Of a DNA stretch of 31,971 bases, positions 3,934 through 29,199 are shown one piece after another. The notes below the pieces were generated by a model. It did no database searches, had not been told where the DNA came from, and saw only the letters and a list, made by a program, of their open reading frames with translations. Every line of letters begins with the position of its first letter. The first letter of the stretch is position 1. The position numbers and the translations under genes were made by a program. The DNA is from a virus: the IMG/VR virus record IMGVR_UViG_3300023296_000032, positions 1-31,971 of that record; one strand, given 5' to 3'.

Positions 3934-5976
3934 ATGATAACAACAGTAGACGTAGAAACTTCGTACCAAAAAACAGCTTCAGGTGGCTTTGATCCATCAC
4001 CATTTAATCCTAGTAACATATTAGTTAGTGTAGGAATTAATGATGAATACTATTTCACTAATCATAGTGAGAGAGTTGATGTTGGTTGTCACAAAAAGAT
4101 ACAAAAAATATTAGATAAAACTAAATTATTAATAGGACATAACATTAAGTTTGATTTAAGTTGGCTACTTGAGGCAGGATTTACGTATACAGGTAATGTA
4201 TATGACACTATGATAGCAGAGTATGTATTAAATCGTGGTGTTAGGGATAGTTTAACACTATTAATGTGCTGTAAGCGTAGAAATTTAGATGCTAAAGATG
4301 ATGCAGTAAAAGAATATATGGATCTAGGTGTATCCTTTGAGAATATCCCTGAAGAAATTGTAGAAAAATATGGTAGAGTTGATGTGGCTATTACTAGACA
4401 ACTGTTTGATGCACAGATGGTAGACTTAAGATCCGATAAGCATAAAGGTTTATTAAAAACAATTAAAGTTATGAATGAATTTTTAATAGTGCTTACTGAT
4501 ATGGAACGTAATGGTATTAATATAAACTTAGAAGACCTTGCACAAGTAGAAAAAGAATACCGAGCAGAGTTTGCATATTTAAAACAGAAGATAGATAAGA
4601 TTGTCTACAATAAAATGGGTGATACTAAAATTAATCTGGGTAGTCCAGAACAATTGTCATGGTTAATATATTCTAGAAAGCCTACAGATAAAAATGAATG
4701 GGCTAAGATATTTAATACAGGTGTGGATAAGTTTACAAAGAAAAATAAAAAGAGACCTAAGTTTTCTTTCTCAAGGTTTAGAACTTTAGTAGCTAATAAT
4801 TCTGAGCCTATACATAGAACTATGGCTAGTAGATGTTTACATTGTACAGGTAAGGGTGTAACTTTAAAAATTAAAGTTGACGGCACACCTTATAAAAAAT
4901 ATAGTAAGTGTGAGGATTGCCATGGAGAAGGTATTATATACTCTAACATGGCTAAACTTGCAGGGTTTAATCAAAGACCTAGAAATGTATATGATATAGC
5001 TGACTCTGGATTTAAAACAGATAGAATAACCTTAAGTAAAATTGCAACAGAAGCAGAGGGAGAGTTCAGGGAGTTTATTGATTCTATAATTAGACACAAC
5101 GCTATCTCTACATACCTAAATACTTTTGTAGAAGGTATACAGAACTTTACAAATGCTAATGGATTATTACATCCTAAGTTTATGCAAGCTGTAACAGCAA
5201 CAGGTAGACTATCAAGTAGAGATCCTAACTTTCAAAATCAACCTAGAGGTACTACCTTTCCTATTCGTAAAGTTATACAATCTAGATTTGAAGGTGGTCA
5301 GATTCTTGAGGTAGACTTTGCACAACTAGAGTTTAGAACTGCAGTATTTCTTGCACAAGATAAACAAGGTATGGAAGATATAAAAAATAAAATAGATGTA
5401 CATAAATTTACTGCTGACATCATAGGTGTATCACGACAAGATGCAAAGGCACACACGTTTAAACCTTTGTATGGAGGCACAACAGGTACAGAAGATGAGA
5501 AGAAGTATTATAAAACATTTGCGGAAAAGTATAAAGATATAACTAAATGGCATGAGGAATTACAAAGTCAAGCTATAAATTTTAAAAGGATAATATTACC
5601 TACGGGTAGAGAATATTCATTTCCATATGCAGAACGTATGCCTTGGGGTGGGTCTAGTTATTCTACTCAAATAAAAAATTACCCAGTACAAGGATTTGCA
5701 ACTGCAGATATTGTACCTTTAGCATGTATAAAAATATATAAGCTAATGAAAGAGCAGAAGGTAAAGAGTTTACTTATTAACACAGTTCACGATTCTATTG
5801 TGGCTGATGTCTATCCTGGAGAAGAAGCTGTAATGAGTAAAATATTTGACCAGGGTACAGCATCCGTAATACCTGCATTGAAAGAGTATTATGGAATAAA
5901 CTTTAATGTTCCACTTGACACAGAGATCAAAATGGGATATGATTGGTTAAATATGAAGGAGATAACTAATGACTAA
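3934..5976 (+). CDS. Family A DNA polymerase with 3'-5' exonuclease and zinc insertion
   Basis: The replicative polymerase. Exonuclease motifs: Exo I D6/E8 (TVDVETS), Exo II H69-N70...D74 (LIGHNIKFD) and Exo III Y146...D150 (YGRVD), so proofreading should be active. Polymerase motif A has D461 (EVDFAQLEFR). Motif B is R501...K505...F509...Y513-G514. Motif C has H619-D620 (NTVHDSIV). F509 aligns with F762 of E. coli Pol I. Between the thumb motif INLGSPEQL (233-241) and SGFKTDRITLSKIA (358-371) lies about 110 residues of extra sequence with a pair of CxxCxGxG motifs (C301/C304 and C326/C329), as in the DnaJ zinc domain. It is preceded by a basic stretch (KFTKKNKKRPK). AAAGG precedes the ATG, and the end overlaps the next gene by 8 bases. 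Confidence 0.95.
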   Translation: MITTVDVETSYQKTASGGFDPSPFNPSNILVSVGINDEYYFTNHSERVDVGCHKKIQKILDKTKLLIGHNIKFDLSWLLEAGFTYTGNVYDTMIAEYVLNRGVRDSLTLLMCCKRRNLDAKDDAVKEYMDLGVSFENIPEEIVEKYGRVDVAITRQLFDAQMVDLRSDKHKGLLKTIKVMNEFLIVLTDMERNGININLEDLAQVEKEYRAEFAYLKQKIDKIVYNKMGDTKINLGSPEQLSWLIYSRKPTDKNEWAKIFNTGVDKFTKKNKKRPKFSFSRFRTLVANNSEPIHRTMASRCLHCTGKGVTLKIKVDGTPYKKYSKCEDCHGEGIIYSNMAKLAGFNQRPRNVYDIADSGFKTDRITLSKIATEAEGEFREFIDSIIRHNAISTYLNTFVEGIQNFTNANGLLHPKFMQAVTATGRLSSRDPNFQNQPRGTTFPIRKVIQSRFEGGQILEVDFAQLEFRTAVFLAQDKQGMEDIKNKIDVHKFTADIIGVSRQDAKAHTFKPLYGGTTGTEDEKKYYKTFAEKYKDITKWHEELQSQAINFKRIILPTGREYSFPYAERMPWGGSSYSTQIKNYPVQGFATADIVPLACIKIYKLMKEQKVKSLLINTVHDSIVADVYPGEEAVMSKIFDQGTASVIPALKEYYGINFNVPLDTEIKMGYDWLNMKEITND

Positions 5977-6190
5977 GACTAATATAGTACTAAGAGTAGT
6001 AGGGTATACGTATAGTAAACCCTCAATAACAGTTGAGTTAGATATGAGTAATAGGAATGAGGCTTTAAGTATAGCCGATAAACTTAATGACATAGCTAAA
6101 GCAAAAGGCGAAGACACTACAATATATTTCGTAGAAACTATTGATATACCAGAGTATAATAAAGATAGTGATGACGAGATACCATTTTAA
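5969..6190 (+). CDS. Small protein with SSB-like acidic C-terminal tail (73 aa)
   Basis: The 73 residues read as a strand-helix-strand (VLRVVGYTYSKPSITVEL; NEALSIADKLNDIAKAK; TTIYFVETI), followed by a tail ending DSDDEIPF. Bacterial single-stranded DNA-binding proteins end in a similar peptide (DDDIPF in E. coli) that recruits partner proteins. The protein is too short for a standard OB-fold SSB. It may be a minimal SSB-like protein or one that only mimics the tail. It overlaps the polymerase gene by 8 bases, which supports a role at the fork. Confidence 0.65.
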   Translation: MTKTNIVLRVVGYTYSKPSITVELDMSNRNEALSIADKLNDIAKAKGEDTTIYFVETIDIPEYNKDSDDEIPF

Positions 6191-6213
6191 TAATAACTAA
6201 CCAAGGATACAAT

Positions 6214-6435
6214 ATGAATACACCCTTACTAGACAAAGAGTTGTGGGAAGAATACGGTAATGATGAGCAAGAAGAAGCTTATGATATGCTACAAAGTTTA
6301 AAGTCCCAACATAATGGAGATCCTACAATGTTATATATAAATGAAAATGAAGAACTACAAAGTTACTTAATGTGGTTTGCTCGCACCGAAAACTTAACGT
6401 GTGAGATTACAGAGGGAGTTACTAGAGTATGCTAG
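6214..6435 (+). CDS. Hypothetical acidic protein (73 aa)
   Basis: A small, strongly acidic protein (LWEEYGNDEQEEAYDMLQSL) with a short C-terminal beta-like part (LTCEITEGVTRVC). AAGGA lies just upstream of the ATG. No family is recognised. Its stop overlaps the start of a 28-codon membrane peptide gene. Confidence 0.55.
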   Translation: MNTPLLDKELWEEYGNDEQEEAYDMLQSLKSQHNGDPTMLYINENEELQSYLMWFARTENLTCEITEGVTRVC

Positions 6436-6515
6436 AGGTGTTACTGGGTGTGGGTTTTATAGTGTTAATTTTACTATTTGTGTGTGATGTGTTTTATCCA
6501 CCTTATAAAAAATAA
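6429..6515 (+). CDS. Putative single-pass membrane peptide (28 aa)
   Basis: The ATG at 6429 overlaps the end of the preceding gene by 7 bases. The peptide is essentially one hydrophobic helix (VLLGVGFIVLILLFV) followed by CDVFYPPYKK. It ends just before the strong promoter at 6519. Such micro-proteins are common in phages, but coding status cannot be proven from one sequence. Confidence 0.4.
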   Translation: MLEVLLGVGFIVLILLFVCDVFYPPYKK

Positions 6516-6518
6516 CAC

Positions 6519-6547
6519 TTGACAAACATACTAAAATGTGGTATAAG
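6519..6547 (+). promoter_or_regulatory. Strong sigma70-type promoter
   Basis: TTGACA (6519-6524), a 17-base spacer and TATAAG (6542-6547) match the bacterial housekeeping promoter closely. It stands in one of the few intergenic spaces of the plus arm. Transcription would start about 6554, just before a very strong ribosome site (AAGGAGG, 6562-6568) and the ATG at 6572. It should drive the 282-aa protein, the nuclease and perhaps the rest of the arm with host RNA polymerase. Confidence 0.8.
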
Positions 6548-6571
6548 TAAATCAATCAACTAAGGAGGACT

Positions 6572-7420
6572 ATGGAAAATAACATAGCAAATATAAGTGA
6601 GATGACCAACGAGCAGATAATGAAAGCTATTGGTCAGGACGATGGTTCAAGTAAAGGAATAAATATTCCTAGACTTGGAATCAACAGGGCACCAGAAGAT
6701 GACGATGGTAATAAATTACCAGTAGGTAATTTGTTTACATTTGATGCTAGTGTTGGTCAAAACGTATATGGAAAACCAGTTACATTTAGACCATTCATAA
6801 GTGCAATGCAATACATGCACTATGATCCAGATAAAAGTGAGTATGTAAACAGATCCATTATCATTAAGAGTTGGAAAGAAGAAGCTGTAGATATACTTGG
6901 TGGAGTAAAATGTGGTAAGGTTCTATTTAAAGATAGGGAATCTTTAACGCCAGAACAGTTAGCAGAGCAGAGAACTATAAGATGTTATAGATTACTCTAT
7001 GGTCTGTTATCTTTTAATGGAGTAAAAGCAAATGGAGAAGAACACATTGTTTCTAACATGCCTGTGCTATGGAGAGTTACAGGTACAGCATTCTCTCCAG
7101 TGGGGTCTGCTTTGGAACAAATAAACAAGCGTAAAAAACTAATGTTTACTACTACACTATCTATAGATACGAATAGACAGAAAAAAGGTGGTAATGTTTA
7201 TTACACACCAGAGATTTCTGTTAATTCTGAGGCTGGATTAGAGATGTCTAAGGATGATATGGAAACATTAACAGTCTTTCAAGAAGCTATTAATAAAGAA
7301 AACACAGAAGTAGTTGATCTTTATAAAGCAGCTAAGAAAGCTGCCTACAAAGTATCTGATGCAGATATGAAAGTAGTAATAGACGCAGTTGAAGATCCAC
7401 TTGAAGTGCTGGTTGGATAA
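6572..7420 (+). CDS. Highly expressed replication-region protein, possibly ssDNA-binding (282 aa)
   Basis: I do not recognise a named family with certainty. The protein has an acidic N-terminus (QDDGSSKGINIPRLGINRAPEDDD), a beta-rich middle (FTFDASVGQNVYGKPVTFRPF; MPVLWRVTGTAF; LMFTTTLSIDT) with many basic residues, and a helical C-terminus. The best promoter in the window and a near-perfect ribosome site precede it, implying abundant expression. It lies between the polymerase and the nuclease, where phages often encode a single-stranded DNA-binding protein. That role is inference. It ends in a TAATG overlap with the nuclease gene. Confidence 0.7.
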   Translation: MENNIANISEMTNEQIMKAIGQDDGSSKGINIPRLGINRAPEDDDGNKLPVGNLFTFDASVGQNVYGKPVTFRPFISAMQYMHYDPDKSEYVNRSIIIKSWKEEAVDILGGVKCGKVLFKDRESLTPEQLAEQRTIRCYRLLYGLLSFNGVKANGEEHIVSNMPVLWRVTGTAFSPVGSALEQINKRKKLMFTTTLSIDTNRQKKGGNVYYTPEISVNSEAGLEMSKDDMETLTVFQEAINKENTEVVDLYKAAKKAAYKVSDADMKVVIDAVEDPLEVLVG

Positions 7421-8304
7421 TGAGCGACATACTTCATAAGGTTCAGAACTATCTGGATAAAGCAAATAAAGATCCTGTAGAAGTATCTGATAAATTACTT
7501 GAAGAGTTTGGTGAGGCATGTAAAAGTGCCTTACGCAAACAGTTTTCAGAGAAACGAAGAGGAACATTTAAACCAAGAATGTCAAGTATAGGTAGACCAC
7601 TATGCCAATTGCAGATGGAAGCAAGAAATGTAAAGGGTGAAGGTCAACCATATAATGTTAAGATGAGAAATACTTTTGGAGATCTCATTGAAGCATTGGC
7701 TATATTTGTTATGAAATCAGCAGGAGTAGAGATAAAAGATGAACAGAAAAAAGTTAAACTTAAATTTGCTGACTCAGAAATTGAAGGCAGGATTGATGTT
7801 AAGATTAATGAGAAGGTGTGGGATATTAAAAGTGCATCACCATACTCATTTACTAAAAAGTTTGAAGGTGGATTCGATGAAGTTGCAAAGGATGATGCGT
7901 TTGGATATATACCTCAAGGATATCTTTATAGTGAAAGTGAGAAGATGCCTTTTGGTGGATGGATAGTAATTAATAAATCTACAGGTGAGTGGACAGTATG
8001 TGAAACTCCTATAGATGATGACGAGTATAGAGTTAAAGCATTGGCTAGTGCAGAACAAAACATTGCAGCTATTAAAAACAATGTACCTTTTAAAAGATGC
8101 TTTGAAGAAGTAGAAGAAACATTCAGAACTAAGAAGACAGGTAATAAAATTTTGGGCATGTCGTGTACATTTTGCCCATACAAACTTCCTTGTTGGGGAA
8201 GTGAATTGAAACTGCTACCACAACAGCAGTCTCAAGGTAAGAACCCTAAGTGGGTTTGGTATACTGAAGTAAAGAACCCTAAGAAAAAGGAAACTTTTGA
8301 ATAG
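7420..8304 (+). CDS. Cas4/RecB-like PD-(D/E)XK exonuclease with probable Fe-S cluster
   Basis: It should degrade DNA ends, for replication, recombination or host DNA breakdown. Motifs in order: a helix with G87 and E91 (FGDLIEAL), EGRIDV with D126, WDIKSA with D135 and K137 (the D-x-K core), and a QGYLY helix with Q166 and Y170. Four cysteines are placed as in Cas4/AddB-type nucleases: C62 before the nuclease core and C249, C252, C258 after it (CxxC-x5-C), consistent with a 4Fe-4S cluster. In T7 the analogous slot is filled by the gp6 exonuclease. The start overlaps the preceding stop (TAATG). Confidence 0.88.
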   Translation: MSDILHKVQNYLDKANKDPVEVSDKLLEEFGEACKSALRKQFSEKRRGTFKPRMSSIGRPLCQLQMEARNVKGEGQPYNVKMRNTFGDLIEALAIFVMKSAGVEIKDEQKKVKLKFADSEIEGRIDVKINEKVWDIKSASPYSFTKKFEGGFDEVAKDDAFGYIPQGYLYSESEKMPFGGWIVINKSTGEWTVCETPIDDDEYRVKALASAEQNIAAIKNNVPFKRCFEEVEETFRTKKTGNKILGMSCTFCPYKLPCWGSELKLLPQQQSQGKNPKWVWYTEVKNPKKKETFE

Positions 8305-8322
8305 GGAATGTTATTTCAACTT

Positions 8323-8357
8323 GGTAGGGGATAGTATTGAGGGGTCTATTTCCTACC
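8323..8357 (+). promoter_or_regulatory. 12-bp RNA hairpin after the nuclease gene
   Basis: GGTAGGGGATAG (8323-8334) pairs over all 12 positions, two of them G-U, with CTATTTCCTACC (8346-8357). The loop is 11 bases. It occupies most of the 66-base gap between the nuclease and the next small gene. Only TTT follows the stem, so it is a weak terminator at best. It may protect the 3' end of the upstream mRNA or control the next gene, whose ATG at 8371 has no visible ribosome site. Confidence 0.55.
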
Positions 8358-8370
8358 TTTATCATATGCT

Positions 8371-8550
8371 ATGATATATTTTGTAGTATCTAAAAAGAAA
8401 GAAGACAAAGAATTTAGAATGTTTACTAATATGATTTTTGATACAGAAAAAGATGCAGAAGAATTTGGAAGAAAAAGTATGAAGAGAGGTTTAGAATTTA
8501 AAGCAGTAGAATATAATAGTGAAAATTATAAAAGGTATTGGTACAAATAA
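8371..8550 (+). CDS. Hypothetical small protein (59 aa)
   Basis: The frame from 8371 gives MIYFVVSKKKEDKEFRMF, then TEKDAEEFGRKSMKRG, ending in YNSENYKRYWYK: a small alpha/beta protein with a lysine- and aromatic-rich end. No ribosome site precedes the ATG, which lies 13 bases after a strong hairpin. Its stop overlaps the next gene by TAATG, which supports it being translated. No family is recognised. Confidence 0.55.
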   Translation: MIYFVVSKKKEDKEFRMFTNMIFDTEKDAEEFGRKSMKRGLEFKAVEYNSENYKRYWYK

Positions 8551-19498: not shown

Positions 19499-20872
19499 TT
19501 ATGATAATAAATTAAAACCAAACTTACCTATCATCTGATACATAGAATCTTTAGATGCCTGATCCTGTAAATCTATTGCTGTAGATCTTTCAAGTGCAGC
19601 CATTGCTAAATTATGATTTCTATTCTGTGCATTCTCAGAAGCAGTATTAACCCATGAAGCTTCATCTCTCCATTGTTGCCATGCTGCTGACATTGCCCAG
19701 TTAGATAATCCCAATAGATTCTGTGCGTTAGTTTGATTGACAGCATTAACTGCTGCAGTGTTTGCAGTATTAATACCTCTTCTCCAAACTACATTTGATT
19801 GGTCTATCTCTCTTTGATTGTTAACGTTAAATTGATCTCTTTGATTTTCTATGGTTGAGTTAAACTGATTAATAGCAGACTCTCTTTCTGCGTTAGCCTG
19901 ATCAACTGCTACTGAATTTTGTGCGTTTAAGGATGCTATCTTATTTGTTTCACTAGTTGCATACTGACCCATTGCATCTGATCTAGCTGCATTCTGTTCA
20001 GCCATTTGTGAACTCATGTTATCATAGAATTGATTAATTTGATTCTGGCTACTAGCATTAAATTGAAATGCTGCATTTGCTGCTGCTTGATCTGACATTA
20101 AGAATGATTGTCTTGCTTGCATATTAGACAAACTAGCTTGTTGATTATTAGACAAGTTAGCCATATCCATTTGTAAATATGATTGAGCATTTGTAATTGC
20201 AGCTTGCTGATTATTTGCAAGATTCTGAAATATCATTTGCTTATAAGTATCTGCATCTGCTTTAGCAATTGGTATAGCAGAGTTCATGATACCTTCGGCT
20301 AATGCCTCAGCTGCCATAGAACTTTGACTCATACCTCTATTAGCCATAGCTGCTTCAGTTGCTTTAGCTGCACCTCTAGCCCATACTGGTAAAGGATTAC
20401 CTGCTGCTACTGCTGTTTCAACATCACTTTGTAAACTTGCTAGCTGACCTCTAACTGTAGAATCTGTACTAACAGTTCCTGTTTGTGCTACTGCAGGTGC
20501 TGTTACTGTACCTTGTGCCCCAGTCATAGTAGGAGTTGATGCTGCTACTCCTGATGCAGTATAAACATTAGCTGCTTGTGTAGTAGGTACTGTAGTTGCT
20601 GTAGAGGTTGGTGCTGCTGCTCCAGTTATTGTAGGTGTTGTTGCACCTGTAGGTGTAGCTGCTGCTACTGTCCCACTAACTCCTGCAGTACTCATTAATT
20701 CATTACTTGCTACATTTTGTAATTGCGGAGATATAGTAGTCCCCGTAGGCATAGTAGGATTAGCTACTATAGACTCAATCAGTGAAGTAGCTTTACTTGA
20801 TGTAGTTTGATTACTAGATGTAGGCTTAACTGAGCCTGTCTGTAAGTTAACTGTATCTACTGTAGCTGCCAT
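19499..20872 (-). CDS. Low-complexity and coiled-coil structural protein (457 aa)
   Basis: Residues about 1-140 are a Thr/Ala/Pro-rich low-complexity region. Residues about 200-400 are Asn/Gln/Ala-rich and probably form a long helical rod (NQFYDNMSSQMAEQNAARSD; INQFNSTIENQRDQFNVNNQ). The end is aromatic (WAMSAAWQQWRDEASW). This fits an extended virion protein, either internal or tail-associated. No catalytic motif is seen. It lies between fibre-type genes and the ejection-protein candidates. Confidence 0.6.
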   Translation of the reverse strand: MAATVDTVNLQTGSVKPTSSNQTTSSKATSLIESIVANPTMPTGTTISPQLQNVASNELMSTAGVSGTVAAATPTGATTPTITGAAAPTSTATTVPTTQAANVYTASGVAASTPTMTGAQGTVTAPAVAQTGTVSTDSTVRGQLASLQSDVETAVAAGNPLPVWARGAAKATEAAMANRGMSQSSMAAEALAEGIMNSAIPIAKADADTYKQMIFQNLANNQQAAITNAQSYLQMDMANLSNNQQASLSNMQARQSFLMSDQAAANAAFQFNASSQNQINQFYDNMSSQMAEQNAARSDAMGQYATSETNKIASLNAQNSVAVDQANAERESAINQFNSTIENQRDQFNVNNQREIDQSNVVWRRGINTANTAAVNAVNQTNAQNLLGLSNWAMSAAWQQWRDEASWVNTASENAQNRNHNLAMAALERSTAIDLQDQASKDSMYQMIGKFGFNLLS

Positions 20873-21003: not shown

Positions 21004-21363
21004 TTACTTAGGCAGGCTTACCTTAACTGCAGCTATATCAACTTTCCAACTATCAATTCCATCATCATATATTTTTTCAAGTTGAGATTCCCATGTACCA
21101 TATGCTTTTCTTCTCATATCTAAAATTGTTCTAGCAACAACAGCATCATTAATTGTTAAACCCCATTCTTGACAATAAGTAAAATCAAATCCAGAAGGTA
21201 CTGTGTTTAATAATTGTAATTCAGTAAATGTATCTTTAGTCAATAATAAAAAAGCATCATTACTTGGTGTTTGTGCTATTATTGTAACATCTCTTTGAAT
21301 TGGATTTTCTATAGTTCCAAAGAACGTCTCCCAATTACTGGCTTCAATTTTATATAACTTCAT
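21004..21363 (-). CDS. Tail-fibre-associated protein / chaperone candidate (119 aa)
   Basis: The C-terminal segment AYGTWESQLEKIYDDGIDSW, followed by K..IAAVKVSLPK, belongs to a motif (YPSIEDQLDxxYxDGIDxWKxxIxxVKxxxPKP) that recurs in proteins encoded beside tail fibres of marine phages and resembles fibre assembly chaperones. The N-terminal part is a small alpha/beta domain. It overlaps the preceding gene by 14 bases and lies just downstream of the propeller genes, in keeping with a role in fibre assembly. Confidence 0.65.
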   Translation of the reverse strand: MKLYKIEASNWETFFGTIENPIQRDVTIIAQTPSNDAFLLLTKDTFTELQLLNTVPSGFDFTYCQEWGLTINDAVVARTILDMRRKAYGTWESQLEKIYDDGIDSWKVDIAAVKVSLPK

Positions 21364-21958
21364 CTTCTACTCCTATAAGTTTTATCTTATCTTTTGGGTT
21401 AATATTTCCTTCAAGAATTTTTGTTTCTTTAGGAATTAAACCTATACTCTTTAATGCGTTCCATGTATAGGGATTACTCATGGCATTTCTTAATTTAGCT
21501 GGAGATGGTCTGCCATTAGCAATCATTTCAGCTTGTATTTCTCTACCAATATTTACAGTAAATTCATTAGCTGCATTAGCTTCAAACATTTCTTCATCAC
21601 TATAACCTTCTATTCTTGTAGGTTCTGCAATCACATAAAGTTCTTTTAATAGTTTATTTAGAATTTCAATCTCTTTTTTATTAAGTTCAAAGGCTTCTTT
21701 AGCTGCTGGTTGATGACTTTCACCTTCCAATATTTCAGCTTTAAGTTCTAAGATTTCATGTTCTAAACCATGACCACCATTTTGTAGATGTTTTAGTTTA
21801 GCAAGTTTAGCTTGATCTTTTAAATTTCCTACTTCTTCCAGTACAGCTGCTCTAACTCTACCCTCTAAAAAACCTTTTAAAGTTTTTATTTTTTCCCAAG
21901 CAGTATCTCCTATTACTTGGTATCTGTAATTGAACTCTGTATTTAGTTTTGATGCCAT
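21350..21958 (-). CDS. Conserved coiled-coil protein next to tail fibres (202 aa)
   Basis: The sequence MASKLNTEFNYRYQVIGDTA, then WEKIKTLKGFLEGRVRAA with a long coiled coil (HEILELKAEILEGESHQPAA) and a C-terminal segment AMSNPYTWNALKSIGLIPKE, belongs to a family I recall beside fibre genes of marine phages. Its function is unknown; a chaperone or minor tail role is plausible. It overlaps the 119-aa gene, so both are probably made together. Confidence 0.65.
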   Translation of the reverse strand: MASKLNTEFNYRYQVIGDTAWEKIKTLKGFLEGRVRAAVLEEVGNLKDQAKLAKLKHLQNGGHGLEHEILELKAEILEGESHQPAAKEAFELNKKEIEILNKLLKELYVIAEPTRIEGYSDEEMFEANAANEFTVNIGREIQAEMIANGRPSPAKLRNAMSNPYTWNALKSIGLIPKETKILEGNINPKDKIKLIGVEDEVI

Positions 21959-21993: not shown

Positions 21994-23274
21994 TTATGCA
22001 CTTGTTGAATATCCTGCTGCTGCTAGAGCATATCTTGCAGTTCCTACTCCAGTAACATCAGCTGCTACAACTCCAGAGTTTGAAACTAGATTAGTTAATG
22101 AAGAATTTGAACCAGTACTACCATAACCAAAGATAGCCTTATCTCCTCCATACCCAGATGCTGCACATTGATTCCTAGCTGTTCCGACACCAGTTACATC
22201 TGCTGCTACAACACCTGAACTTGAAATTAAATTTGATAAAGAAACATTAACATCACCTGCAGCAATTCCATATGCAAATAATGCTTGACCAGTTGAACCA
22301 TAACTTGCTGCTGCTGCACCATATCTAGCTGTTCCTACTCCTGTAGTATCACTTGCAACCACTCCTAAATTTGAAACTAAATTAGTTAATGAATAATGAA
22401 TAGGACCACCAGACCATATATAACCATATCCAAAGATAGCTTTATCTCCACCGTAACCACAAGCTGCTAGAGAACCTCTACCAGTACCTACACCAGATAC
22501 ATCAGTTGCAACAACACCAACATTAGAAACTAAATTAGTCATAGAAACATATGAACCACTATAACCATAACCAAATATTGCCTTATCTCCTCCGTATGAA
22601 GTTGCTGCTAATTCATTCCTAGCTGTACCAACACCAGTAACATCTGCTGCTACCACACCACTATTATTAACAAGGTTAGTTATTGATGTAACACTTCCAG
22701 AATTTCCATAACCAAAAATGGCTTTATCACCACCATATCCAGCTGCTGCTGGTCTATTCCTAGCTGTTCCTACTCCTGTAACATCTGCTGCTACAACTCC
22801 AGAACTAGATACTAAATTGGTCATAGATACATTTGAACCAGTATAACCAAAACCAAATATAGCTTTTTGAGTTGGTGGTGCAGTAGGCTCTAATGCAGAA
22901 GCATCATCATCTAAAGGTAGCCAACCTTTAGTAGCATCTGAATAAACTATGTTTAATGATTGACCATCTGTATTATATTCCACTGTGTAAGTATCATCAT
23001 TACCTTGATAATTTAAACCATTTGAATCTATTATAATTTTGTTTGTTCCCCAAGTTCTTAAATAATCTATAAAAACTATTTGATCACCTTTTTCAGCAGA
23101 GCTTGGCAAAGTGATTGTGCAAGTATTTGAAGTCGTATTAATCCAGTAACCATTTCCAGCAACAGCAGTTAATGTTGAACCTGTAATAATTGTAGAGTTC
23201 CAATTAAGTCCAGCAGCACTTACTGCTATAACCCCAGAACTTCTTAATATATTACTTTGTACTATTCCACTCAT
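21994..23274 (-). CDS. Tail protein with six-repeat propeller, copy 3 (426 aa)
   Basis: Two parts. Residues 1-123 are a tail-type beta domain (GYWINTTSNTCTITLPSSAE, then GDQIVFIDYLRTWGTN and IDSNGLNYQG) that I know from phage tail proteins. After a proline linker, residues 137-424 are six repeats of 47-52 residues with the consensus KAIFGYG-variable-TNLVSNxGVVAADVTGVGTARxxLAAAxYGGD. The TAR...AAA.YG.DKAIFGYG part resembles Kelch blades, so a six-bladed propeller is predicted. Differences concentrate in the loop after FGYG. Repeat 4 carries an extended loop (YIWSGGPIHYS). Probably a receptor-binding or fibre-tip protein. It is last in transcription order of three tandem paralogs. Confidence 0.75.
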   Translation of the reverse strand: MSGIVQSNILRSSGVIAVSAAGLNWNSTIITGSTLTAVAGNGYWINTTSNTCTITLPSSAEKGDQIVFIDYLRTWGTNKIIIDSNGLNYQGNDDTYTVEYNTDGQSLNIVYSDATKGWLPLDDDASALEPTAPPTQKAIFGFGYTGSNVSMTNLVSSSGVVAADVTGVGTARNRPAAAGYGGDKAIFGYGNSGSVTSITNLVNNSGVVAADVTGVGTARNELAATSYGGDKAIFGYGYSGSYVSMTNLVSNVGVVATDVSGVGTGRGSLAACGYGGDKAIFGYGYIWSGGPIHYSLTNLVSNLGVVASDTTGVGTARYGAAAASYGSTGQALFAYGIAAGDVNVSLSNLISSSGVVAADVTGVGTARNQCAASGYGGDKAIFGYGSTGSNSSLTNLVSNSGVVAADVTGVGTARYALAAAGYSTSA

Positions 23275-23278
23275 AATT

Positions 23279-24529
23279 TTATCCTACTTTTGCTGCTGCT
23301 AATGTAGTTCTTGCAGTTCCTACACCCGTTGTATCACTTGCAACTACACCAGTATTAGAAACTAAATTAGTTAATGATAATTTTGCAACATTATTAAATC
23401 CATACCCAAAGATTGCTTTATCTGTACTGTACCCAGCTGCTGCCAAATTATGTCTACCTGTACCCACTCCTGTTACATCTGCAGCAATTACTCCAGTATT
23501 AGATACTAAGTTTGTTAATGAATAAGTAGCCGCACCATAACCAAAAATTGCTTTGTCAGTACCATAAGTTGTTGCTGCTAAAGTTTCCCTAGCGGTACCA
23601 ACTCCTCCAACATCACTAGCTATCACCCCAGTATTTGAAACTTTATTGCTTAATGATACGGTACTACCAATATAACCATATCCGAAAATACCTTTATCTT
23701 CACCATAACCAGCTGCAGCCAATCCTCTTCTAGCAGTACCCACACCTCCTGTATCAGTTGCTACAACACCTGTAATAGAAACTTTATTAGACATAGATAA
23801 ATTAGAACTTCCATCAAATCCATAAGCAAAAATACCTAGTTGTGTACCATAACTAGATGCAGCTATACTTCCTCTAGCAGTTCCAACACCTGTAGTATCT
23901 GCTGCTACTACACCACTATCTGAAACTAAATTTGTTATTGCAGTTACACTTGCAGTTTGACCAAAACCAAATAACGCTTTATTTCCGCCATATGTAGTTG
24001 CTGCTAAATAACCTCTAGCCGTACCTACACCTGTTACATCTGTTGCCACTACCCCTGAACTATTAACTAAATTAGTCATTGAAACATAAGGAGTAGTAAA
24101 TCCATATCCAAATATTGCTCTTAATGGGGGTGGTGCAACTCCTACATCTGCTACTGCATCATCTGAAACTGGAATCCAACCTTTAGTTGCGTCTGAATAT
24201 ACGATTGATAAACTTTGACCAGCAGTAGAATAATCTACAGTATATGTATCTGGATCGCCTTGAAAATTTAATCCGTTAGAATCTATAATTAAGTTATTGA
24301 TTGACCAAGTTCTAGCATAATCTACTAATACAATTTGATCTCCAATTTCTGCTGAACTAGGTAAAGTTACAGTACAAGCATTAGATGTTGTATTAATATA
24401 ATATCCATTTGCTGCTTCTGCTGATAATGTTGTTCCAGTTATAACTGCTGAACTCCAGTTAAGACCAGCTACAGTAGGAGCTATAACTCCTGATGCTCTA
24501 AATACGTTGCTTGTTATTTGTCCACTCAT
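23279..24529 (-). CDS. Tail protein with six-repeat propeller, copy 2 (416 aa)
   Basis: The same design as its neighbours: a beta domain (GYYINTTSNACTVTLPSSAE, then DQIVLVDYARTWSIN) and six Kelch-like repeats from residue 137 to the end, e.g. KALFGFG...AITNLVSDSGVVAADTTGVGTARG. Two repeats (3 and 4) have SNKVS in place of TNLVS, so the blades are diverging. The final repeat ends LAAAKVG rather than AAAGYST. The gap to the next gene is only 4 bases, and AGGA in the last codons serves as its ribosome site. Probably an adhesin of the tail. Confidence 0.75.
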   Translation of the reverse strand: MSGQITSNVFRASGVIAPTVAGLNWSSAVITGTTLSAEAANGYYINTTSNACTVTLPSSAEIGDQIVLVDYARTWSINNLIIDSNGLNFQGDPDTYTVDYSTAGQSLSIVYSDATKGWIPVSDDAVADVGVAPPPLRAIFGYGFTTPYVSMTNLVNSSGVVATDVTGVGTARGYLAATTYGGNKALFGFGQTASVTAITNLVSDSGVVAADTTGVGTARGSIAASSYGTQLGIFAYGFDGSSNLSMSNKVSITGVVATDTGGVGTARRGLAAAGYGEDKGIFGYGYIGSTVSLSNKVSNTGVIASDVGGVGTARETLAATTYGTDKAIFGYGAATYSLTNLVSNTGVIAADVTGVGTGRHNLAAAGYSTDKAIFGYGFNNVAKLSLTNLVSNTGVVASDTTGVGTARTTLAAAKVG

Positions 24530-24534
24530 AATTT

Positions 24535-25794
24535 TTATGCCGTTGTTGAGTATCCTGCGGCTGCTAATCCAGTTCTTGCTGTACCAACTCCTGATACATC
24601 TGTTCCTATTACTCCAACATTTGTAACCAAGTTAGTCATGTTTTGTCTGCCAGCATTATCACCATAACCAAATATAGCTTTATCACCACCATAAGAACAA
24701 GCCGCTGGACCTCCTCTAGCTGTTCCAACTCCTGTTACGTCTGCTGCAATTACTCCAAGATTTGAAACTAAATTTTTATGTGCTGTTTTTCCTGATATAA
24801 CTCCATATGCAAAAACACCTTTATCTCCTCCATAACCAGCAGCTGCTCTGTAAGTAGTTGCAGTACCTACTCCAGTTCCGTCACTTTGAACTACACCTAA
24901 ATTATTTACTATATTAGAAAGATTTGAACTAGCAGCACCAGAACCAAATGCAAATATAGCTTTGTCTCCACCAAATCCACAAGCTGATGAGTTTGTTCTA
25001 GCAGTTCCTACACCAGCAGTATCACTTGCTACAACACCTAAATTAGATACTAAATTTGATACTGCTGTAGCACTACCACTATTACCAAAAGCAAATATAG
25101 CTTTATCATTACCATATGAAGCGGCAGCTCTTTCGTTTGTTGCAGTACCAACTGCAGATACATCTGTTCCAACTACTCCTAAATTAGTAACTAAATTAGT
25201 CATACCTACATTTGATCCAGTAGTACCAAAACCAAATATTGCTTTATCCCCACCATAAGATGCTCCAGCTAAATATGCTCTTGGAGTACCAACACCAGTT
25301 ACGTCTGATGCTACTACACCACTACTATTAATTAAATTACTTAATGAACTATAGCCACTAGAAGGTTGTCCATATGCAAATAAACCTTTCTGTGTTGGTG
25401 GTGCTGTATGATCAAAAGCTGAAACTATATCAGATGCTGGTGTCCAACCAACAGTTGCTCCAGAATAAACTAAATTAACTGCTTGACCACTTGTGTCATA
25501 ATCAACAATGTAAGCATCTGTTTCAGATTGAAATAATAAACCATTACTATCTATTGTGATTGCGTTAGTACCCCATGTTCTTGCATAGTCTGTAAGAATA
25601 ATCTGATCTCCAGCTGTCGCAGAACTTGGAAGTGTAATTGTACAAGCGTTTGAGGTAGTGTTAATAAAATAACCTTTACCAGCACTAACTGTTACAGTTG
25701 AAGCTGTAACTACTGGTTGCCAACTTAAACCACCAGCTGCTGCAACTATACTTCCAGATGATCTAAAAATATTGTCTTTTACCAATCCACTCAT
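24535..25794 (-). CDS. Tail protein with six-repeat propeller, copy 1 (419 aa)
   Basis: First of the three paralogs to be transcribed. The N-terminal domain (GYFINTTSNACTITLPSSAT, then GDQIILTDYARTWGTN) is followed by six repeats from residue 136. These are the most divergent set: FAYG or FAFG often replaces FGYG, and GVGTAT replaces GVGTAR in two repeats, which would remove the conserved arginine of a Kelch-like blade. C-terminus LAAAGYSTTA is almost the same as that of the 426-aa copy. Predicted tail-tip or fibre protein. Confidence 0.75.
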   Translation of the reverse strand: MSGLVKDNIFRSSGSIVAAAGGLSWQPVVTASTVTVSAGKGYFINTTSNACTITLPSSATAGDQIILTDYARTWGTNAITIDSNGLLFQSETDAYIVDYDTSGQAVNLVYSGATVGWTPASDIVSAFDHTAPPTQKGLFAYGQPSSGYSSLSNLINSSGVVASDVTGVGTPRAYLAGASYGGDKAIFGFGTTGSNVGMTNLVTNLGVVGTDVSAVGTATNERAAASYGNDKAIFAFGNSGSATAVSNLVSNLGVVASDTAGVGTARTNSSACGFGGDKAIFAFGSGAASSNLSNIVNNLGVVQSDGTGVGTATTYRAAAGYGGDKGVFAYGVISGKTAHKNLVSNLGVIAADVTGVGTARGGPAACSYGGDKAIFGYGDNAGRQNMTNLVTNVGVIGTDVSGVGTARTGLAAAGYSTTA

Positions 25795-25808: not shown

Positions 25809-26138
25809 CTATAATGTTTGATCTAAATAACTAATAACAACATCAACATTTCCTGCACTTGCTAATGCAGCAGAAAGAACATCTCCAGCTTCTAATACAA
25901 GTCTAGATGTATGTTCGAATGTTGCGTTTGCACCTAGAGCTTGATCTGAATAAATTTCAAAGTCATTAGCACCTGCATCATCTCTTATATATAAATCAAA
26001 AGTTTCAGCTGCACCTGCAGTTTCACATAATGATAAATTAAGTATAGTATAAGTGTGTCCACTTGCTACAGTCAATAAATCGTTTTCACTATTAGTAACT
26101 CCTGCTACTAATTTTACTTTCATTAATTCACTTGCCAT
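25809..26138 (-). CDS. Small beta-rich structural protein (109 aa)
   Basis: The sequence reads as a beta sandwich (ELMKVKLVAG, LLTVASGHTYTILNLSLCET, ETFDLYIRDDAGANDFEIYS, then FEHTSRLVLEAGDVLSAAL and VDVVISYLDQTL). Similar small proteins occur beside tail fibres in marine phages, but I know no assigned function. It lies between the repetitive fibre gene and the propeller genes, so a tail or fibre accessory role is likely. Confidence 0.65.
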   Translation of the reverse strand: MASELMKVKLVAGVTNSENDLLTVASGHTYTILNLSLCETAGAAETFDLYIRDDAGANDFEIYSDQALGANATFEHTSRLVLEAGDVLSAALASAGNVDVVISYLDQTL

Positions 26139-26157: not shown

Positions 26158-27654
26158 TTAAAAACCCATTACAAAGGATTTTCCTATTGTTGTTAATTGA
26201 CCACCTTCTGCTGTTACTATTCCAGCTGTTGTTAAATTTCTAACACCTGTATAATCTTTATTACTATCTAATATAACTGCTTTACTAGCGATAGCTGTAC
26301 CAGTTCCTGTAGCACCTAAATCTAAAGCATTAATTTCACCAACCACAACAGTAGCACCATCTAAAATATTAATTTCTGTTGCAGTAGAAGTTACTGCTAC
26401 ATCTTCATTTACTTTTGGTGAAGTTAAAGTTTTGTTTGTAAGAGTTTGTGTTGCGTCATTTAAAGTAATATTTGATGTGTTAGACAAATCTGTTGAGGTA
26501 ATACTTATGTTTGCTGTTCCATCAAAACTTTGACCTGCAATTGTTCTAGCCGTAGCTAGTGCTGTAGATGTAGCTGCTAACCCTACCGCAATATTAGCTG
26601 TACCATCAAAACTAGTACCCCCAATAGTTCTAGCTGTTTCTAATGCTGTAGCTGTAGCTGCATTACCAGTAGTACTTTGGTTTAAAGTTGCCACTGTAAA
26701 GTCTAGTGTGTTATCTGCATCATCATATGCTACTGTAATACCTGATTCAGTATTTGAAGATACCATTGCACCAACTGTATCTGAAATAACTTCAGACAAA
26801 TCAATATTGGCTGTACCATCGAATGATACTCCGTGAATAGTTCTAGCCGTAGCTAATGCTGTAGTAGTATCCGATAAAGCGACTGCAATGTTTGCTGACC
26901 CATCAAAACTAGTACCACCAATAGTTCTAGCCGTAGCTAATGCTGTAGTAGTATCCGATAAAGCGACTGCAATGTTTGCTGACCCATCAAAACTAGTACC
27001 ACCAATAGTTCTAGCTGTTTCTAATATTGTAGCTGTTGCGGCATTACCTGTAGTATCTTGATTAAGAGTACCTACTGTAAAATCTAAAGTATTATCAGCA
27101 TCATCATATGCTACTGTAATACCCGATTCAGTATTTGAAGTAACCATAGCACCAACTGTATCTGATATTGTTTCTGCTAAAGTAGTACCAGCAAGAGTTA
27201 ATGCTCCTGATATATCTACTGCACCATTGATATCAATAGTAGTTGCAGCTATTTGTATTTCTGTATCTGCTACTATATCTAATTGACCATCTGTTGATTG
27301 AAAAATATAAGTTCCAGTGTCGCCAAAGTTTAATCTTTCTGTACTATTCATTAAGATGTCATCAGAGAATTTAAAGTAATCCTCATCTTCCATCCATGTT
27401 AATATACCATCAGCAGTCTCTCCATCAAATGTTACAGCAATATCTGTGCCTGCTGTAGCATCACCAATAGTGATTGCTGTGCCTAATAATTTTGTAATGG
27501 GTCCACCTTCTGCGGCTGTCCCATCGTGAGTATGTCCTGAAGTTACAGCAAATGCAGCAAGAACTTGATCAAATTCTGCATTTATATCTGATGCCTCAAT
27601 AACTGCACCATCAACAATAGCTGATGCACTCTGTCTTGTATATGTTGCTCCCAT
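26158..27654 (-). CDS. Repetitive tail fibre protein (498 aa)
   Basis: The N-terminal domain (SASAIVDGAVIEASDINAEF, then FAVTSGHTHDGTAAEGGPI) is typical of phage fibre proteins and probably attaches to the tail. The middle holds repeats: a unit of about 70 residues (SDTVGAMV.SNTESGITVAYD, then ARTIGGTSFDG.ANIAV) occurs twice, and ARTI.G.SFDG.ANI occurs six times. The end (LTNKTLTSPKVNEDVAVTST) is a common fibre repeat type. An exact 84-bp tandem duplication lies at 26836-27003. No hydrolase motif is seen, so it is a binding rather than an enzymatic fibre. Confidence 0.8.
   Translation of the reverse strand: MGATYTRQSASAIVDGAVIEASDINAEFDQVLAAFAVTSGHTHDGTAAEGGPITKLLGTAITIGDATAGTDIAVTFDGETADGILTWMEDEDYFKFSDDILMNSTERLNFGDTGTYIFQSTDGQLDIVADTEIQIAATTIDINGAVDISGALTLAGTTLAETISDTVGAMVTSNTESGITVAYDDADNTLDFTVGTLNQDTTGNAATATILETARTIGGTSFDGSANIAVALSDTTTALATARTIGGTSFDGSANIAVALSDTTTALATARTIHGVSFDGTANIDLSEVISDTVGAMVSSNTESGITVAYDDADNTLDFTVATLNQSTTGNAATATALETARTIGGTSFDGTANIAVGLAATSTALATARTIAGQSFDGTANISITSTDLSNTSNITLNDATQTLTNKTLTSPKVNEDVAVTSTATEINILDGATVVVGEINALDLGATGTGTAIASKAVILDSNKDYTGVRNLTTAGIVTAEGGQLTTIGKSFVMGF
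26836..27003 (-). repeat. Exact 84-bp tandem duplication in the tail fibre gene
   Basis: Bases 26836-26919 and 26920-27003 are identical by direct reading, and the identity continues for 12 more bases (27004-27015). The unit keeps the reading frame (28 codons, one ARTIGGTSFDGSANIAVALS block plus linker). Other repeats in this gene have diverged, so this copy is recent. Confidence 0.95.
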
Positions 27655-29199
27655 TTACCTTCTTCCCCCTGGTGTAAATTCTAATTGAAACCCTTTGATT
27701 GCAAAGGGTGCGTTAGTACTTGTGTCTGTTATTTTTAATGCTACTGCAAATCCTGATCCTTCTACTGATTCTCTTGTAATAGGTAAATCTCCTTGACCAT
27801 AAGCTGCTGTACCAAATGTTCCTGTTCCAAAATAGGCTCCACTACCAGATGATTCTAATGCTATTAAACTTGGTTGAGGAGTATTTATATCGTCATAATT
27901 ATATCTTACAAATAAACTTGAACTTACGATACCTTCAGGTTCCCAGTTTATGTTAACTCTGTCCATTGATTTTCTAATACCAGCATCACCCATTGTCATA
28001 TCTGGGGATCTATATGTTGCATCAATAGCAGATGTTGAGCCTGCTGTTGTAAACACATTTCCTGATTCCTGTAAATATATATATCCATCATATCCACCAT
28101 GAACAATAGTTTCTATATTGCTAATATAATCAGAATCACATGATGAAACTTTTAAACCCTTTATATCTGCATACTCAAAACCTAATTGACCTGTAGTAGG
28201 GTTTGATTTAATAACAGCTAATAAACCTTTTTGATTTGCTTCTAATCCTGAATCTTTAGGATAAAATAGTCTGTATTGAGATTTGTTTCTAACTACTGCT
28301 GCTGTAACATTATCATATGTAATCTCATTAATTCTTTCTTGTACTTGTTTTGAAATAGTACCAAGTTCTATGTCACCAATTCTATCTGTACCTGCAACAG
28401 TTCTTAAACCATCTGCAGCTAAAAATATTAAATCTCCACCTAATTCCTGGATAGAATGGGGTGCAATTGTACCAACGTTTTTAGCAACTTCAGCCAGTGC
28501 AAAGTTAGTAGATGAAGTACCTGTTAATTTATATATCTTTCTTTGGCAGAATATAAATAATTCATCTCTAAATACTTTTAATCCTGTAACAACATCACCA
28601 ACTTTTATCTCTCCCGCACCACTAGCCGAAGTAAAGTCGTCTTCTAAAAAAGGTACTGAGAATAATATGCTGTGTGTAGAATTTGACATACCACCATAAA
28701 ATACATGATTGGCAAATGTCTTAACAAATTTAGGATTAGTAGGTGCAGTGCCACCACCTGTAGCATTTATTACATCTACTGTAAAACTTGTATCAACAGT
28801 AAATGCTGCTGCTTCTCCTGTTGCAATTATAATTTTACTTGTTCCATTAAAGTTAAATTTATCAAAATCATATGTGTAAACTTTACCTTGGGTAGTTGCC
28901 AGTGAAGTCCATGCTCCACTTGTCCCACCATAAGATACTGTACCACCTCTAGCTACAACTATCTTATTATTAAAGATTGCAGACATTTGTATTCTTTCAT
29001 TAGCTAATGTTACTTGAGGTACTATTGTTGAATTATATTTTGTAGTCCCATTAAGTCTTCTGTATCCACCTTCTGTAGATGGTTCAAAATTTACTAATTG
29101 TAATGCTTCTCCTGGTTGCATGTCATAAACATCTTTGTTTAAAACAAGTCCACCACCACAGGTAGCATTAAAGTTTTTTAATAGGGAAGTATCTGCCAT
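27655..29199 (-). CDS. Tail nozzle-like protein (tail tubular protein B type, 514 aa)
   Basis: The sequence opens with MQPGEALQLVNFEPSTEGGY and RRLNGTTKY and continues through beta-rich blade-like segments (FANHVFYGGM; GLKVFRDELFIFCQRKIYKL; SIQELGGDLIFLAADGLRTV). This pattern fits the nozzle protein of short-tailed phages (T7 gp12, or the P22 gp10 stabilisation protein), which closes the tail tube. It directly follows the adaptor gene, as gp12 follows gp11 in T7. The assignment is from pattern and order; I cannot align it here. Confidence 0.7.
   Translation of the reverse strand: MADTSLLKNFNATCGGGLVLNKDVYDMQPGEALQLVNFEPSTEGGYRRLNGTTKYNSTIVPQVTLANERIQMSAIFNNKIVVARGGTVSYGGTSGAWTSLATTQGKVYTYDFDKFNFNGTSKIIIATGEAAAFTVDTSFTVDVINATGGGTAPTNPKFVKTFANHVFYGGMSNSTHSILFSVPFLEDDFTSASGAGEIKVGDVVTGLKVFRDELFIFCQRKIYKLTGTSSTNFALAEVAKNVGTIAPHSIQELGGDLIFLAADGLRTVAGTDRIGDIELGTISKQVQERINEITYDNVTAAVVRNKSQYRLFYPKDSGLEANQKGLLAVIKSNPTTGQLGFEYADIKGLKVSSCDSDYISNIETIVHGGYDGYIYLQESGNVFTTAGSTSAIDATYRSPDMTMGDAGIRKSMDRVNINWEPEGIVSSSLFVRYNYDDINTPQPSLIALESSGSGAYFGTGTFGTAAYGQGDLPITRESVEGSGFAVALKITDTSTNAPFAIKGFQLEFTPGGRR

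Follow-up and report, generated by a model that had tools for sequence, protein, structure and literature searches.

Several receptor-binding proteins per phage are described for Ackermannviridae CBA120, whose TSP1-4 possess stem domains of the T4 gp10-like XD type and have exchanged modules among each other (PMC8825819, PMC8432352); the XD1 domains are trimeric in TSP4 (PMC8825819). Kelch proteins are known from jumbo phages (e.g., CBB_550, 552, and 554), with CBB_552 detected in the virion (PMC5259590), and in the metaviromic islands of pelagiphages, hypervariable host-recognition genes adjoin conserved ones, as stated in the section of PMC3909814 cited here. The present study concerns three tandem genes (A, B, and C) in a stretch of 31,971 bases, hereafter the window, which is the complete IMG/VR virus record IMGVR_UViG_3300023296_000032 and itself a partial genome. 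Each gene encodes an N-terminal stem and a C-terminal head of six repeats. They probably constitute three parallel receptor-binding spikes with Kelch-like heads exchanged as cassettes, for which the product of a linked gene, P1, would be the dedicated partner.

Gene organization and repeat number

The three genes and their parts are located as follows:

24535-25794, minus strand: gene A, 419 amino acids, stem of predicted XD1 type and six-repeat Kelch-like head
25393-25794, minus strand: stem of A, residues 1-134, slot-A clade
24535-25392, minus strand: head of A, six repeats
23279-24529, minus strand: gene B, 416 amino acids, stem and six-repeat head, structure predicted
24125-24529, minus strand: stem of B, residues 1-135, slot-B clade, fold match to XD1 of TSP4
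23279-24124, minus strand: head of B, closed six-bladed Kelch-like propeller in the predicted structure
21994-23274, minus strand: gene C, 426 amino acids, stem and six-repeat head
22870-23274, minus strand: stem of C, residues 1-135
21994-22869, minus strand: head of C, six repeats, its longest b-c loop being situated in repeat 4

The genes are transcribed in the order A, B, C and are separated by 5 and 4 bases. An initial annotation had reported three adjacent genes of 426, 416, and 419 amino acids with gaps of 4 and 5 bases, which matches the open reading frames exactly. In all three proteins, an N-terminal domain of around 134 residues is followed by repeats of around 47 residues each. Splitting by pattern yields exactly six repeats per protein, 45-52 residues each, with the first one beginning at residue 135 or 136, and the alignment of the 18 repeats contains nine invariant positions (F5, G8, N18, G24, V25, D29, V33, G34, and T35), such that the repeat core cannot be due to chance; the six repeats of about 47 residues and the core given in the annotation are thereby confirmed. 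A and C are 56% and 66% identical to B.

Six repeats are found in 156 of 162 unique complete homologous open reading frames, the homologue sets having been taken as the 80 best hits of each scan instead of at random. Among these 156, 150 score six directly, and 6 more show six repeats plus a spurious match of 3-4 bits in the stem; the six exceptions possess 5, 5, 5, 3, 2, and 2 repeats. Where the 3' end is intact, the protein terminates 0-3 residues past the final repeat. The nearly constant number and the abrupt end are what ring closure would demand, unlike a free variation in repeat number, which the annotation had named as an observation that would speak against its proposal. A 273-amino-acid gene with just three repeats is situated between six-repeat genes in another locus (L052:10910-11731) and possibly encodes a half propeller that pairs.

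The stem

Structures were predicted with AlphaFold2 as single chains for B (with 68 homologues) and for its stem alone. In a Foldseek comparison with the PDB, the stem modelled alone matches first the XD1 domain of CBA120 TSP4 (E 1.1e-9, 1.2 Å over 102 columns), followed by gp10, CpaA, gp9, and StcE, which is essentially the list of XD1 relatives reported for TSP4 itself (PMC8825819). The sequence profile of the stem likewise matches TSP4 residues 74-175 (E 1.6e-9). What had been described as a beta domain is, by sequence and by predicted fold, an XD1-type domain as in TSP4 and T4 gp10. Matches in the PDB are limited to the XD1 part, with a stem of around 135 residues, and XD2/XD3 docking domains of the CBA120 type were not found.

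Equally to CBA120, several candidate receptor-binding proteins with a gp10-like XD stem domain are present per phage, and module exchange among paralogues is seen here as well, one head being found on stems of different slots (loci L043 and L014). In contrast to CBA120, only XD1 is matched, the heads are Kelch-like instead of beta-helix enzymes, and the phage is presumably short-tailed. Concerning XD1 of T4 gp10 and gp9, the stem is alike in sequence and fold, whereas here it is a single-domain stem bearing a propeller and not a baseplate wedge protein of a contractile tail.

The head

The model of B has a mean predicted local distance difference test score (pLDDT) of 85.9, with around 93-98 (around 96) in the propeller blocks, while disorder is predicted for residues 1-22. 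The 50 best fold matches of the propeller in the PDB are all six-bladed Kelch domains or designed Kelch proteins (SAKe), the best being KLHL12 (E 5.6e-15, target TM-score 0.81), KLHL17, and Keap1. The predicted ring is closed and consists of six four-stranded blades, of which DSSP gives the outer strand weakly. The model thus supports a closed six-bladed Kelch-like propeller as the head of B, in agreement with the proposal of the initial annotation, which a structure prediction lacking a closed propeller would have refuted.

In sequence, Pfam Kelch profiles did not match A, B, C, or five other members at E values up to 0.1-1, and membership in the Pfam Kelch sequence family was rejected for lack of a curated profile match. 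The propellers of PLL/PHL lectins are seven-bladed. The Photorhabdus PLL/PHL lectins give a weak profile match (E 1.6e-6) and are not among the 50 best fold matches; kinship with them was rejected on account of this weak match and of the differing blade number (six here). With the Kelch domains of KLHL12, KLHL17, KLHL20, and Keap1, the heads share the closed six-bladed predicted fold, and their variable loops correspond to the pocket-forming BC and DA loops (PMC7333892, PMC6720452). There are also differences: identity amounts to about 16%, and here the propeller is a phage head on an XD1 stem and no BTB domain is present. The Kelch proteins of jumbo phages are similar in that Kelch-type propellers occur within phage proteins; they differ in being recognised by InterPro Kelch models, and an XD1 stem or an exchange pattern is not described for them in the part of the report cited above.

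Variable sites

In the first locus set (634 unique repeats), columns 9-16 and 38-39 show the highest entropy. In a larger set, columns 9-14 and 38-39 reach a mean of 3.11 bits, compared to 1.22 elsewhere in stem-bearing proteins and 0.65 elsewhere in the others. Internal insertions are situated nearly all after columns 9, 10, or 12. The variation which the annotation had located in the loop after FGYG is therefore real (columns 9-16), but a second, equally variable site at columns 38-39, the xx of TARxxLAA, had been missed. By strand order and by analogy with Kelch domains, the two sites are assigned to the b-c and d-a loops. In Kelch-ligand complexes, the ligand sits in a pocket for which the BC and DA loops provide frame and floor (PMC7333892, PMC6720452), and because Kelch topology places both at the pocket, this analogy supports a putative common binding face of the b-c and d-a loops, as expected in the annotation, which had the variable loops line one face.

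Among 11 independent close pairs, replacement and silent codon changes amount to 41:15 in the variable columns versus 50:61 in the core (p 6e-4). The loop residues are the variable ones, contrary to what, according to the annotation, would have refuted its proposal.

Exchange of heads on conserved stems

The stem tree groups the proteins by gene slot, with clades A and B of 14 rows each (support 100 and 97) and C types in several clades. The head tree does not follow this grouping; since its resolution is poor, no detailed conclusions were drawn from it. Head identity is nearly independent of stem identity, with head medians of around 0.52-0.57 for stems ranging from <50% to 97% identical.

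The most instructive comparison is that with locus L006. DNA identity is around 98-100% downstream of the array and 94-97% in all three stems, whereas it is 65-73% in all three heads; silent-site divergence (dS) is correspondingly 0.09-0.12 in the stems and 0.76-0.86 in the heads of all three genes. Such head-wide divergence at silent sites points to replacement of the head, not to mutation of the loops. The converse also exists: gene 2 of L043 and L014 has a common head (dS 0.10) on different stems (dS 1.17), and between L154 and L032 head dS is 0.02 and stem dS 0.57. In 31 gene pairs, stem DNA identity is 0.90 or higher; head DNA identity in these pairs is either at most 0.74 (20 pairs) or at least 0.92 (11 pairs), with none between. 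As judged from these sequence comparisons, the clear signal is that stems are inherited by slot and heads are exchanged whole. Whole genes may be replaced, too, since L007 and L008 have genes A and B in common and differ throughout gene C, stem included. In L041 (1174-3801), the B-type and the C-type stem have exchanged places, such that slot identity goes with the stem and not with gene order. The array of the window recurs in IMGVR_UViG_3300022885_000080 at 99.6-100% protein identity, and other heads also recur across samples.

Head diversity might instead be made in place, by a diversity-generating retroelement or by blade-wise shuffling of repeats. It would fit this that variation is limited to few positions in the loops, where G, S, Y, T, and N are frequent, and that the inner repeats keep their index only slightly more often than by chance (0.23-0.28 versus 0.167). 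However, none of 24 records, ranging in length up to 524 kb, gave a reverse transcriptase (PF00078) match above the cut-off, the window itself being a partial genome, which disfavours a retroelement; moreover, silent sites of heads are diverged as between unrelated heads (dS around 0.8), and head identity on near-identical stems is all-or-none. Diversification in place is accordingly very improbable. Blade-wise shuffling is less well supported as the main source of diversity, the clear signal being whole-head replacement.

The setting resembles that of the metaviromic islands and host-recognition modules of pelagiphages in having hypervariable genes beside conserved neighbours; it differs in that the section of PMC3909814 cited here concerns C-termini of tail fibres and C1q-like proteins, whereas propeller heads, slot-specific stems, and P1 are found here.

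Other heads on the same stem

In HTVC023P, a cultured Pelagibacter phage of SAR11, four tandem genes (gp59-62) possess the same stem with glycine-rich heads (Pfam PF21722, Gly_rich_2), and in HTVC033P, the glycine-rich gp62 and gp64 occupy the equivalent genome slot. These phages differ from the window in that Gly_rich_2 heads without Kelch-like repeats are present and P1 is not, and the HTVC033P pair has no stem match. Five loci (L037, L069, L108, L164, and L175) carry Kelch-like and glycine-rich heads side by side, and in L068 the two kinds of head have a short N-terminal tag in common (MIISGxxxGGGTPG type). That head and stem vary independently is what most strongly speaks for a role in recognition. 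A relationship of the glycine-rich heads to gp38 adhesins was considered, but a solved structure is matched by the stem only and not by the head, so that it remains a guess.

On the other hand, propellers are generic scaffolds, and in one member, from a bacterial genome bin, the propeller follows a signal-peptide-like N-terminus (see below), both of which would be compatible with structural or decoration domains that serve virion stability or weak adhesion to particles or non-host matter. Fast whole-head exchange and loop-confined variation rather resemble recognition modules, and glycine-rich heads substitute on the same stem; decoration is thus quite unlikely.

Number of genes per array

The three slots with distinct stem clades are often kept as three adjacent genes, and XD1 is trimeric in TSP4 (PMC8825819). 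A, B, and C could hence form one hetero-trimeric or larger mixed spike, the heads of which act together and not as alternatives. Among complete arrays with this stem, however, one gene (n=18), two genes (n=4), and three genes (n=11) occur, and arrays without the stem comprise one to four; three genes are common in the lineage of the window, but the family as a whole does not adhere to this number. The occurrence of one-, two-, and four-gene arrays speaks against a hetero-trimer being obligatory throughout the family. The replacement of a single gene including its stem (L007 versus L008) and the swapped stems of L041 likewise count against the mixed spike, which appears unlikely. Of the two options offered by the initial annotation, alternative receptor binders are better supported than the hetero-trimer, because heads are exchanged gene by gene on conserved stems and non-Kelch heads are found on the same stem. 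Closed four-gene arrays were seen only in L134 and L137; in the former (3987-8531), the last of the four tandem repeat genes has five repeats.

P1, P2, and their distribution

Two further genes follow gene C:

21350-21958, minus strand: P1, 202 amino acids, conserved linked partner of Kelch-like heads, no known family
21004-21363, minus strand: P2, 119 amino acids, usually after P1, C-terminal match to phrog_9114 (unknown function)

P1 has no match in Pfam, PHROG, or PDB. The P1 family is present in 81 of 108 loci, in 70 of them at most 100 bp downstream of the last Kelch-like gene. When searching in reverse from P1, 72 of the 80 best loci contain a Kelch-like gene immediately upstream; of the others, 3 are at a contig edge, 2 have a Kelch-like gene elsewhere, and 3 have none. 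P1 is 55-65% identical even among phages whose N-termini show no relationship. That one conserved partner accompanies many different heads suggests that P1 is an assembly chaperone, and it is a candidate for a new family of fibre-assembly proteins. A relative of P2 in L052 carries Pfam DUF4376.

A search of 50,697 cultured phage records gave no match to P1 or to the repeat; in the case of the repeat, low-complexity filtering by BLAST may contribute to this. A scan of 84,980 bacterial and archaeal species (one genome each) gave a single relative, in the Oligoflexia metagenome bin L190 (7806-9555), where a six-repeat head behind a signal-peptide-like, twin-arginine-like N-terminus (RRKFF) is followed by P1 amid ordinary bacterial genes. 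By analogy with Bdellovibrio, which employs phage-like fibres as adhesins on its prey (PMC10769870), this might be an adhesin that was co-opted.

Genomic setting

DNA polymerase and capsid protein share 77% identity with their counterparts in Pelagibacter phage HTVC033P, a short-tailed phage of the HMO-2011 type that infects SAR11 strain HTCC1062 (PMC9038755). Because these core genes resemble those of HTVC033P, the phage, a marine one, is probably of the HMO-2011 type, short-tailed, and a phage of the highly abundant SAR11 bacteria. The array is flanked on one side by a tail-fibre gene (26158-27654) and a small neighbour, and on the other by a conserved gene (19499-20872), the product of which is 70% identical to HTVC033P gp56. 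The small neighbour is:

25809-26138, minus strand: 109-amino-acid gene upstream of A, member of the tail module, weak match to phrog_1276

The tail-fibre protein contains internal repeats (ARTIGGTSFDGSANIAVALSDTTTALAT); compared to L006, its gene is mostly diverged or unaligned, with around 95-98% DNA identity at the 3' end. The next gene (27655-29199) matches phrog_5107, named amidase, as in the HMO-2011 annotation; since it is positioned among tail genes, it may encode a structural tail protein, in which case the name would be a misannotation. On the minus strand, 11432-12097 matches phrog_3704, named ferredoxin (E 3.4e-55), and is a candidate auxiliary metabolic gene.

Interpretation and significance

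According to the explanation that we consider probable, A, B, and C would be presented in parallel on the tail as three receptor-binding spikes. Each slot-specific stem would consist of a disordered N-terminal peptide and the XD1-type domain, which is trimeric in solved relatives, and the hypervariable face of b-c and d-a loops on the head would bind a cell-surface ligand. Whole heads would be replaced by recombination, with homology likely provided by conserved stem DNA on one side and by the stem of the next gene or P1 on the other. Ring closure would keep the blade number at six, and P1 would act as a dedicated assembly or folding partner serving any Kelch head.

Several points weigh against this explanation. 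Receptor binding by A, B, and C is deduced from anatomy and evolution, and their multimer state from analogy with TSP4 and gp10. The codon counts show relaxed or diversifying change and do not by themselves prove positive selection, and metagenomic assembly could have mis-joined heads to near-identical stems in particular contigs.

More tentatively, the parts might constitute a mobile, general-purpose adhesin kit of slot-specific XD1 stems, interchangeable six-bladed heads in ring-closure register, and a P1 that accepts every head. Marine as well as other phages would share it in spite of N-terminal tags that are unrelated, with the pair of head and P1 also present in a bacterial bin.

Phages of SAR11 count among the most abundant phages of the ocean. 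To the question of how they match the diversity of host surfaces, the three genes offer a testable answer: a propeller face with known variable residues, on heads that appear to be exchanged whole, three per genome. As the type of head can be read from metagenomes separately from the phage lineage, it is directly testable whether host range goes with the head or with the rest of the genome.

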